Part shown: in pieces, positions 36,763-39,098 of the stretch
Numbering within the stretch: position 1 is the stretch's first letter
How the letters are laid out: the number at the start of each line of letters is the position of its first letter
Source: Gemmatimonadaceae bacterium
Lineage (GTDB): Bacteria; Gemmatimonadota; Gemmatimonadetes; Gemmatimonadales; Gemmatimonadaceae
DNA length: 64,000 nucleotides
Direction: 5' to 3'
Assembly (NCBI GenBank): GCA_020852815.1
Contig: JADZAN010000002.1
Span: 186,001 to 250,000, forward strand
Translations under genes and position numbers: made by a program
The notes under the pieces: generated by a model
Told to the model about the DNA's origin: nothing
The model's database searches: none
What the model saw: the letters and a program-made list of their open reading frames with translations, nothing else

Positions 36763-38007
36763 ATGAAGCGCATCGTCGTCGTCGGCGCGGGGGCCATCGG
36801 GCTGGCGTGCGCGCATGCGTTGGCCAAGCGCGGGTTGCAGGTGGTCGTGGTCGACAAGGGCGCACCCGGAGATGCCTGTACGAAGGGAAACGCCGGATGG
36901 ATCGTCCCCTCGCTCTCGGCGCCGATTCCCGCGCCGGGAATGACGTGGCGCTCGCTCGCGTGGATGCTGTCGAGCGACAGCCCGCTCCATGTCGCCCCGA
37001 CCGCCGTGCCGCGGCTGGCGCGCTGGCTGTGGCACTTCTGGCGTCACTGCAACGCGCGCGACTGGAGCGCGGGGCTGCACGCGGTTGCCGCGCTCAATCG
37101 GGGGACGCTGGCGGCGTTCGATGCCCTCGCCCGTGAGGGAATCGAGGTGGAGCTGCATCGCCAGGGGCTGCTATGCGTATTTGGACAGGTGCGCGACATG
37201 GAACGGGTGCGCGCCGAGTTCGAGCAGCTCCGCGACTACGGCTACCGCGTACCGACTCCGCTAAGCGGCGATGCGCTGCGCGAGCTGGAGCCGGCGCTGT
37301 CCAGCAACGTGACGACTGGTTTCCTCACGTCCGAGGAGTATCACGTGCGCCCGGAGTCGCTCGCCGCTGGATATGCGGCGCGGCTGACGCACATGGGGGT
37401 CGAGCTTCGCACGGGCGTGACCGTCCTCGGCGCTCGCGCCGGTGCGCACGCGGTCGTGCTCGAGACCGACGTCGGGGCGATCGAGGGAGAGGGCGTCCTC
37501 GTGGCCGCGGGCGCGTGGAGCGGGGAGGTGCTCCAACGATTCGGCGTGCGGCTGCCGGTGCAGGCGGGGAAGGGATACAGCCTGACGATCGACACCCCGC
37601 ACCCACAGCTGCAACGCCCCGTCTACCTTGGCGAGACGAAGATCGCCGCCACGCCGTTCGACGGCGCCGTGCGCTTCGCCGGGACGATGGAACTCTCGGG
37701 CGTCAACGAGCGATTCGACGCGCGACGAATGACCGCGATCCGAAAGGGGATCGCGCGCTACCTGCGCGAGCCGCTGCCTGCGGGCGGTACGGAGTGGGTC
37801 GGGATGCGCCCGCTCACGCCGGACGGGCTCCCGATGATGGGGCTGGTGCCGGGATTCGGGAATGTGTGGGTGGCGACCGGGCATGCGATGCTCGGCATCA
37901 CGCTGGCGCCAGTGACCGGCGAGGCGATGGCGGCGCTCATTGCAGGCGAGGTGCCGCCGGTGTCGCTCCGGGCGTTCGATCCGGGGCGCTTCCGGCATTA
38001 CACCTGA
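36763..38007 (+). CDS. FAD-dependent oxidoreductase, D-amino-acid dehydrogenase (DadA)-like
   Basis: A 414-residue DAO-family flavoprotein. It starts with the FAD motif VVVGAGAIGLACAHALAKRG and continues with GNAGWIVPSLSAPIPAPGM, typical of DadA-like enzymes. The C-terminus has WVGMRPLTPDGLPMMGLVPG and VATGHAMLGITLAPVTGEAM. It would oxidise a D-amino acid or proline-like amine and pass electrons to the respiratory chain. The downstream MerB-like gene starts 65 bases later in the same direction, so co-transcription is possible. The substrate cannot be read from the sequence. Confidence 0.9.
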   Translation: MKRIVVVGAGAIGLACAHALAKRGLQVVVVDKGAPGDACTKGNAGWIVPSLSAPIPAPGMTWRSLAWMLSSDSPLHVAPTAVPRLARWLWHFWRHCNARDWSAGLHAVAALNRGTLAAFDALAREGIEVELHRQGLLCVFGQVRDMERVRAEFEQLRDYGYRVPTPLSGDALRELEPALSSNVTTGFLTSEEYHVRPESLAAGYAARLTHMGVELRTGVTVLGARAGAHAVVLETDVGAIEGEGVLVAAGAWSGEVLQRFGVRLPVQAGKGYSLTIDTPHPQLQRPVYLGETKIAATPFDGAVRFAGTMELSGVNERFDARRMTAIRKGIARYLREPLPAGGTEWVGMRPLTPDGLPMMGLVPGFGNVWVATGHAMLGITLAPVTGEAMAALIAGEVPPVSLRAFDPGRFRHYT

Positions 38008-38072
38008 CCAACATGTGCGAGATTGCCGCTCGTCGCGAACGCTGGGCGACCACATCTCCATGAGGAATCTCA

Positions 38073-38735
38073 GTGAACGCGCTTGAACGCAACGTCCGTG
38101 CACTCGTCATTCGCACGCTGCGCGATACCGGCTTGCCACCCACGCTGGACGACCTCGCGTCGGCGAATGGCAGCTCCACGATTGATATCCGCGCGGCGCT
38201 CCATTCGCTCGAGGCACAGCATCGCCTGGCGCTGCGCCCGGGGACCGACGAGATCTGGATGGCGCACCCGTTCGCCGCGCTCCCGTCAGATTTCGTCGTC
38301 GCGTCAGGTGGGCGATCGTGGTGGGCCAACTGTGTCTGGGACGGCTTCGCGATTCTGGGGATGGTGGGGGACGGGACGCTCGACACGCACTCGCCCCGAA
38401 GCGGCGCGGGGATCCGCCTAACGGTTGAGCGCGGTCGCGTGCTGGGCGACGCCATCGTGCACTTTCTTGTGCCGGCGCGGCATTTCTGGGACGACATAGG
38501 CTTCACGTGAGCGAACATCGCGGCCTTCCGGTCGGAAGGCGAGCTCGATGAATGGCTCACCGCGCGCGGCTACGTGCGAGGGGCGGTGGTGGCGCCGCAG
38601 GCGCTGTACGATCTTGGGCGGGAGTGGTATGCGACGCGGCTCGATGTGGACTACGAGCCGGCGAGCGCGGCGGCGGCGCAGGCGATGTTCGCCGCGCACG
38701 GGCTCACTGGACCGTTCTGGACCCTCACTGTCTGA
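38073..38735 (+). CDS. MerB-like (organomercurial lyase family) protein with in-frame UGA at the catalytic Cys position; candidate selenoprotein
   Basis: The GTG at 38073 follows a GAGGAA sequence. The frame meets TGA at 38508-38510 and then continues without another stop to 38732, giving 220 residues if UGA is decoded. Family features lie on both sides of the UGA: HFWDDIGFT directly before, and ANIAAFRSEGELDEWLTARG then RGAV directly after, as in MerB-like proteins where the intervening residue is cysteine. MerB catalysis uses Cys96, Asp99 and Cys159; here C87 and D90 keep the CxxD spacing, and codon 146 (UGA) takes the Cys159 place. A SECIS-like hairpin follows at 38523-38540. The family cleaves carbon-mercury bonds, though many MerB-like proteins are uncharacterised. 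The alternative is a recent TGC/TGT-to-TGA nonsense mutation. No selenocysteine machinery is in the window. Confidence 0.8.
38523..38540 (+). promoter_or_regulatory. Candidate bacterial SECIS hairpin
   Basis: GCCTTCC-GGTC-GGAAGGC forms a perfect seven-pair stem with a four-base GGUC loop. The first loop G lies 19 bases after the in-frame UGA (38508-38510). Bacterial SECIS elements sit just downstream of the UGA with a G/U-containing apical loop; the E. coli fdhF element has GGUC at nearly the same distance. Part of the stem is constrained by the conserved FRSE coding, which is the main reason for caution. Confidence 0.7.
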
Positions 38736-38747
38736 AGGCATCACACC

Positions 38748-39098
38748 ATGGAGAAGCACCGGATCTACACGATGTCGGTCGCGGGCGTCTATCCGCACTA
38801 CATCCAGAAAGCCGAGAAGAAGGGGCGCACCAAGGAGGAGGTCGACGCCGTGATCTGCTGGCTCACCGGCTACACGCCCAAGGCGCTGGCGAAGCAGATC
38901 GAGCAGCGGACGAACTTCGAGGAATTCTTCGACCAGGCGCCGGCGCTGCACCCCAACGCCAGCAAGATCACCGGCGTCATCTGCGGCGTGCGCATCGAGG
39001 AGATCGAGGATCCGCTGATGAAGAAGGTGCGCTATCTCGACAAGCTGGTGGACGAACTGGCCAAGGGGCGGCCGATGGAGAAGATCCTGCGCACGTAG
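38748..39098 (+). CDS. DUF2200 domain-containing protein
   Basis: A 116-residue soluble protein that matches DUF2200 along its whole length: [23 protein letters not shown] is recognisable at the N-terminus, [11 protein letters not shown] in the middle, and [20 protein letters not shown] followed by [12 protein letters not shown] at the C-terminus. The function of the family is unknown. It starts 12 bases after the MerB-like gene's stop, so it is probably co-transcribed with it. Confidence 0.92.

Follow-up and report, generated by a model that had tools for sequence, protein, structure and literature searches.

A MerB-like gene with an in-frame UGA codon

The window analyzed here, a 64,000-nucleotide stretch of contig JADZAN010000002.1 from a Gemmatimonadaceae bacterium, carries on its forward strand a MerB-like gene of 220 residues (38073-38735), hereafter Sec-MerB. 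The gene starts at a GTG codon, 6 nt 3' of a Shine-Dalgarno-like GAGGA (38062-38066) seen directly in the sequence, and ends at a TGA (38733-38735). As the original prediction had it, the frame is interrupted only by one internal TGA (38508-38510, codon 146), which lies in the context GFT-U-ANI. The protein matches the Pfam MerB family (PF03243) at 1e-20 and 74.4 bits, where the cut-off is 27, and a genome-wide search found this gene, with its one internal TGA, to be the only MerB in the 5.38-Mb genome. It is flanked on the same strand by an upstream gene for a FAD-dependent amino-acid-oxidase-like protein (DAO; 36763-38007; PF01266, 3.6e-66) and by a downstream DUF2200 gene (38748-39098; PF09966, 1.7e-54), neither of which is a conserved partner.

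The neighbors of the relatives are specific to their clades. A UbiA-like prenyltransferase, a P1-type peptidase, a CoA transferase and a TRAP transporter recur by eye, but they are limited to 12 closely related loci that form a single group, and a conserved operon partner was rejected. The neighborhood comparison of Sec-MerB loci found no conserved mercury-related neighbors. A link to the mer operon was rejected as well: no MerA was found in the window genome, and MerA scores above its cut-off in six of the 51 Sec-MerB genomes, which is not an enrichment (Fisher p = 0.27). About half of MerB-encoding genomes are without MerA (PMC8261052). Three MerA-like flavoproteins that fall below the MerA cut-off (G273 C101, G252 C26, G376 C11) have one in-frame TGA each and are possible further selenoproteins.

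The genes selA, selB, selC and selD, on which a selenoprotein reading depends in the original prediction, are all present in the window genome. The tRNA-Sec (selC) scores 68.5 bits against a gathering score of 47, and SelB (304 bits), SelA (532 bits) and SelD (385 bits) are all above curated cut-offs. The selD gene adjoins the tRNA-Sec gene and has one in-frame TGA of its own; SelD is a well-known selenoprotein in other bacteria.

Conservation of the UGA codon and the SECIS hairpin

Homologues were sought in 179 genomes of the window's family and then, using a profile (A1) built from an alignment of 17 UGA-type proteins, in 395 genomes of the phylum. A MerB-like match is present in 29 of the 179 same-family genomes, many of these matches having exactly one internal TGA, and A1 matches 68 of the 395 phylum genomes, 51 of which have a UGA-type gene. 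With duplicates removed, the site is covered by 17 Cys genes and by 51 distinct UGA genes, counting that of the window. The UGA always falls in the same column of the 51 genes, which are mostly Gemmatimonadota-like, and its context is nearly always [IV]-[GV]-[FY]-T-U; the 17 other homologues have TGC or TGT (Cys) in this column. The exchange between UGA and Cys at codon 146, which had been anticipated for a genuine selenoprotein, is thus seen across dozens of homologues. Eleven further genes with the UGA in the same column come from a second, Chloroflexota-like phylum, in which 12 of 301 genomes, that of a Chloroflexi MAG (locus L050) included, share the gene, the UGA and the hairpin with the window. 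SelB is present in the Chloroflexi MAG. More than 60 related bacterial genes, spread over several families and two or more phyla, keep the UGA arrangement; the genomes are related, and gene and genome counts are non-independent events. Two MAG loci labeled 'Gemmatimonadetes' (L049 and L051) have the same gene sequences as two genomes of the window's class, G340 and G219, consistent with a Gemmatimonadota origin of the window. An occurrence in a Gammaproteobacteria MAG (L048) was rejected, its gene sequence being the same as that of G233 of the window's class; the NCBI label is probably wrong.

The frame remains under selection beyond the UGA. Comparison of 27 closely related pairs of UGA genes gives a pN/pS of 0.25 before the codon and 0.30 after it, and this similarity argues that the downstream part is translated and under protein-level purifying selection.

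Twelve nucleotides (38511-38522) separate the UGA from a bacterial SECIS hairpin, GCCUUCC-GGUC-GGAAGGC (38523-38540, forward strand), in which a perfect stem of seven base pairs (38523-38529 with 38534-38540) closes a GGUC loop (38530-38533) at 19 nt from the UGA, with a dG of -11.3 kcal/mol. The spacer, stem, loop and distance are all as originally described. The E. coli fdhF SECIS shares the GGUC apical loop and lies at a similar distance from its UGA; it has a bulged U in the upper stem, which the window stem lacks. According to published constraints, a bacterial SECIS (bSECIS) has a loop of 3-9 nt, a stem of 4-16 bp, a G among the first two bases of the loop, a distance of 16-37 nt from the UGA and an MFE of -7.5 or lower (PMC13188914), and the window hairpin lies within every one of them (4 nt, 7 bp, GGUC, 19 nt, -11.3). 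Rfam gave no relevant match. At positions drawn at random from the window an equally good hairpin at such a distance turns up in 1.6% of cases, and recoding the window gene alone with synonymous codons yields one in 3.3%; in the window sequence alone the hairpin is weak evidence, only suggestive.

Across the family the hairpin evidence is decisive. A CUUCC-GGUC-GGAAG hairpin at 12 nt, with at least 5 bp and the GGUC loop, is found in 49 of the 51 UGA genes, and the GGUC hairpin in none of the 17 Cys genes, so that it is not equally common in the Cys relatives, a finding that would have counted against a SECIS. All seven pairs form in 15 of 43 distinct Sec sequences and mostly 5-6 in the others, and the pair at positions 14/29 alternates between U-A (18) and C-G (13). 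When the genes were shuffled synonymously with their own codon usage (300 shuffles), GGUC hairpins averaged 2.8 with a maximum of 10, against 43 observed in 45 distinct sequences; the constraint on the hairpin is therefore on the RNA, not on the protein. The FRSE codons under the hairpin are TTC in 51/51, CGG in 51/51, TCG in 49/49 and GAA in 38/51 of the UGA genes, and elsewhere in the same genes these codons are used at 82%, 31%, 39% and 30%. CGG, TCG and GAA (codons +7, +8 and +9) give the three strongest synonymous-conservation signals among 53 positions scored. The caveat that conserved FRSE codons might explain the stem does not hold, since the codon choice far exceeds same-gene usage and the shuffles fall so far short of the observed count.

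SelB follows the UGA form: it is present in 48 of 51 UGA-type genomes versus 4 of 11 Cys-form genomes (Fisher p = 6.6e-5 in the 395-genome draw, kinship ignored), and the three UGA genomes without it are assemblies that are 81-85% complete.

A single UGA in a single sequence could be a mutation, and a decayed relative seems to exist on a Rubrobacter radiotolerans plasmid, where a UGA at the same site is followed by a broken frame. That the window gene is such a pseudogene, carrying the plain nonsense mutation against which the original prediction had cautioned, is refuted by the conserved UGA column; 51 distinct genes share it, including some from single-contig genomes, selection persists downstream of the codon, and the hairpin is conserved at synonymous sites. 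The probability left to this explanation is negligible. An error in the reads, which resequencing might have exposed, is excluded by independent genomes with the same UGA, several of the genes sitting on single-contig assemblies. Recoding of the UGA without a SECIS, through an alternative code or near-cognate readthrough, would likewise yield a full-length protein, but the same gene stops at an ordinary TGA, relatives have Cys at the aligned residue, and the SECIS and all the Sec factors are present; it deserves hardly any weight. The UGA column, the SECIS and the Cys relatives together rule out a pseudogene, an error in sequencing and an altered code. The selenoprotein reading of the gene is strongly supported, every check named in the original prediction as able to refute it having come out in its favor, and the conservation pattern indicates that Sec is almost certainly inserted at codon 146 in vivo.

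Cys relatives and double-UGA paralogues

Most of the ingroup consists of UGA genes in each of two trees, and the Cys groups branch inside it, with two changes in one tree and four in the other; well-supported branches force only one Sec/Cys change, the deep branches being weakly supported. Since the Cys groups are nested among UGA genes, the clade may have had Sec originally and changed from Sec to Cys later. In one Cys clade, from Gemmatimonadota-like genomes and Proteobacteria plasmids, Asp90 is also replaced by Cys, giving CxxC plus Cys (loci L023, L024, L029, L031-L033, L035, L036, L038, L039, L041, L094, L140 and L141); its metal chemistry is likely different. Other Cys relatives (L155-L157) keep CxxD. 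Both forms can occur together: in genome G211 (L085 and L127) a Sec-MerB is accompanied by a classical MerB-like gene of the Cys type.

Some copies depart from the common arrangement. On the Rubrobacter radiotolerans plasmid NZ_CP007515 (L142, 1462-1960), an annotated merB of 89 residues ends at the same-site UGA; the frame is broken shortly afterward and the GGUC hairpin is lost, and the entry is a truncated annotation of a Sec-MerB that has probably decayed. Locus L107 (G226, single contig) is a Sec-MerB with a second, upstream TGA and a Phe-to-Cys change under the SECIS stem, and is probably decaying or another variant.

Three paralogues in genome G571 (L158 on C176, L164 on C274 and L165 on C143) have UGA at the equivalents of both Cys96 and Cys159, in the motifs Q-U-GF[ED] and U[SA]G, and are candidates for a double-selenocysteine active site. 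The second UGA of each is followed by the usual GGUC hairpin. At the first, a weaker hairpin common to all three lies 17 nt 3' of the codon; its energy of -5.8 to -6.5 kcal/mol falls short of the published MFE threshold. In L163 (G531 C73), a relative of these paralogues, the first site is Cys, Glu takes the place of Asp99 and the Cys159 equivalent is UGA. The subfamily to which the paralogues and L163 belong occurs in only two of 29 genomes of that class, G571 and G531.

Active site, known relatives and proposed mechanism

An AlphaFold model (on A1; pLDDT 95.4) has the MerB fold. The closest solved structure is mercury-bound MerB2 (5c17), with a Z of 19.9 and 2.7 A over 186 residues; MerB 3f2f gives a Z of 15.1. 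Profile alignment to 3f2g and 5c17 places Cys87 (codon TGT, 38331-38333) on Cys96, Asp90 (codon GAC, 38340-38342) on Asp99 and U146 on Cys159, the residue numbers being counted from the printed alignment. The proposed location of the UGA at the Cys159 equivalent is thus borne out, as is the CxxD spacing of the other two catalytic residues. Neither Cys87 nor the proton-donor Asp varies among the 17 Sec proteins aligned in A1. The Cys117 equivalent is Ser107 in the window protein and Cys in most Sec relatives. In MerB, the modeled active site consists of Cys96, Asp99 and Cys159 with Hg (PMC4525700), from which the mechanistic roles of these residues are taken.

MerB (E. coli R831b; PF03243; PDB 3f0o/3f2f) and MerB2 (5c17) resemble the window protein in fold (Z 15-20), Pfam family, Cys96/Asp99/Cys159 positions and length (about 210-220 aa), but the window gene has Sec for Cys159, and identity in the structure alignment is 17-18%. 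MerB differs further in that the window protein scores 22.4 bits against the NCBIfam NF009710 equivalog cut-off of 193 and lacks a mer operon, MerA and the Cys117 equivalent. Among the members with cut-offs shown, none of the NCBIfam models reached its cut-off. Sec in MerB relatives has already been catalogued: entries named 'Alkylmercury lyase MerB-like' and 'Organic mercuric lyase MerB2' are listed (PMC9312934, PMC7435645), and a 2026 review (PMC13188914) equates the entry with SaoL. Members of the window's clade may already be covered by an older catalogue entry. The main texts of GOS 2008, Peng 2016 and deep-Sep do not mention MerB.

The window protein could itself be SaoL (NF040728; Haft and Gwadz 2023, as listed in PMC13188914), the MerB-like lyase with Sec already known from the Sao operon, for which organometal chemistry is proposed. 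Weak matches to NF040728 are found among its relatives, with E no higher than 1 for 16 of 17 and 2.4e-12 for the best, but the window protein has no match at E <= 10, the best relative reaches 47.1 bits against a cut-off of 140, and generic MerB models score no worse. Neither Sao-type neighbors nor a multi-selenoprotein Sao operon was noted, the neighbors having been typed by Pfam, neighborhood comparison and eye, and the listed SaoL motif is CU as opposed to TU here. SaoL membership was rejected on the NF040728 score and is highly improbable; the clade scores far under both the SaoL and the MerB cut-offs. A weightier alternative accepts the selenoprotein but not the organometal lyase, the Sec and Cys residues serving metal binding, metal storage or redox chemistry on a MerB fold. 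Here the missing mer operon and MerA context fits, the organomercury link is by analogy, and MerB2-type Ser99 variants bind Cu(II) (PMC8261052). Against it, all three catalytic positions correspond to those of MerB and the proton-donor Asp is conserved throughout A1, though replaced by Cys in the CxxC clade. A non-lyase function is rather unlikely on balance.

The reading we prefer, to which we assign a probability of roughly two in three, is a genuine MerB-fold selenoprotein encoded by a stand-alone gene, with Sec146 inserted by way of SelB and the hairpin and with lyase-like chemistry by analogy with MerB. SelB with Sec-tRNA(Sec) would bind the GGUC hairpin just 3' of UGA 146, and the ribosome would place Sec at this codon and go on to make all 220 residues, as conservation suggests. 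Cys87, Asp90 and Sec146 would be presented where MerB has Cys96, Asp99 and Cys159. Judging from the conserved triad, the protein probably acts as an organomercury or organometal lyase. By the MerB analogy, an organomercurial or other organometal cation would be held by the thiolate of Cys87 and the selenolate of Sec146, the proton that releases the hydrocarbon would come from Asp90, and Hg(II), bound by S and Se, would be passed to thiols of the cell. Since Sec is acidic and binds mercury with high affinity, Sec146 would plausibly serve as a ready ligand that is charged and holds Hg strongly. The gene would act as a unit of its own, outside any mer operon with MerA.

Selenium, with its notably high mercury affinity, would thus sit at a mercury-ligand position. 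It is possible, if tentative, that these genes represent an unrecognized and widespread family of Se-dependent organometal lyases of Gemmatimonadota-like and Chloroflexota-like bacteria that function away from mer operons, with a diselenol active site in one lineage. Annotation pipelines can cut Sec-MerB genes at the UGA, as in the Rubrobacter copy, and surveys of MerB that demand Cys159 (PMC8261052) would drop them; a possible organomercury-degrading reservoir may therefore go uncounted. The natural Sec/Asp, Cys/Asp and Cys/Cys versions, found side by side, can be used to test why Sec is employed.
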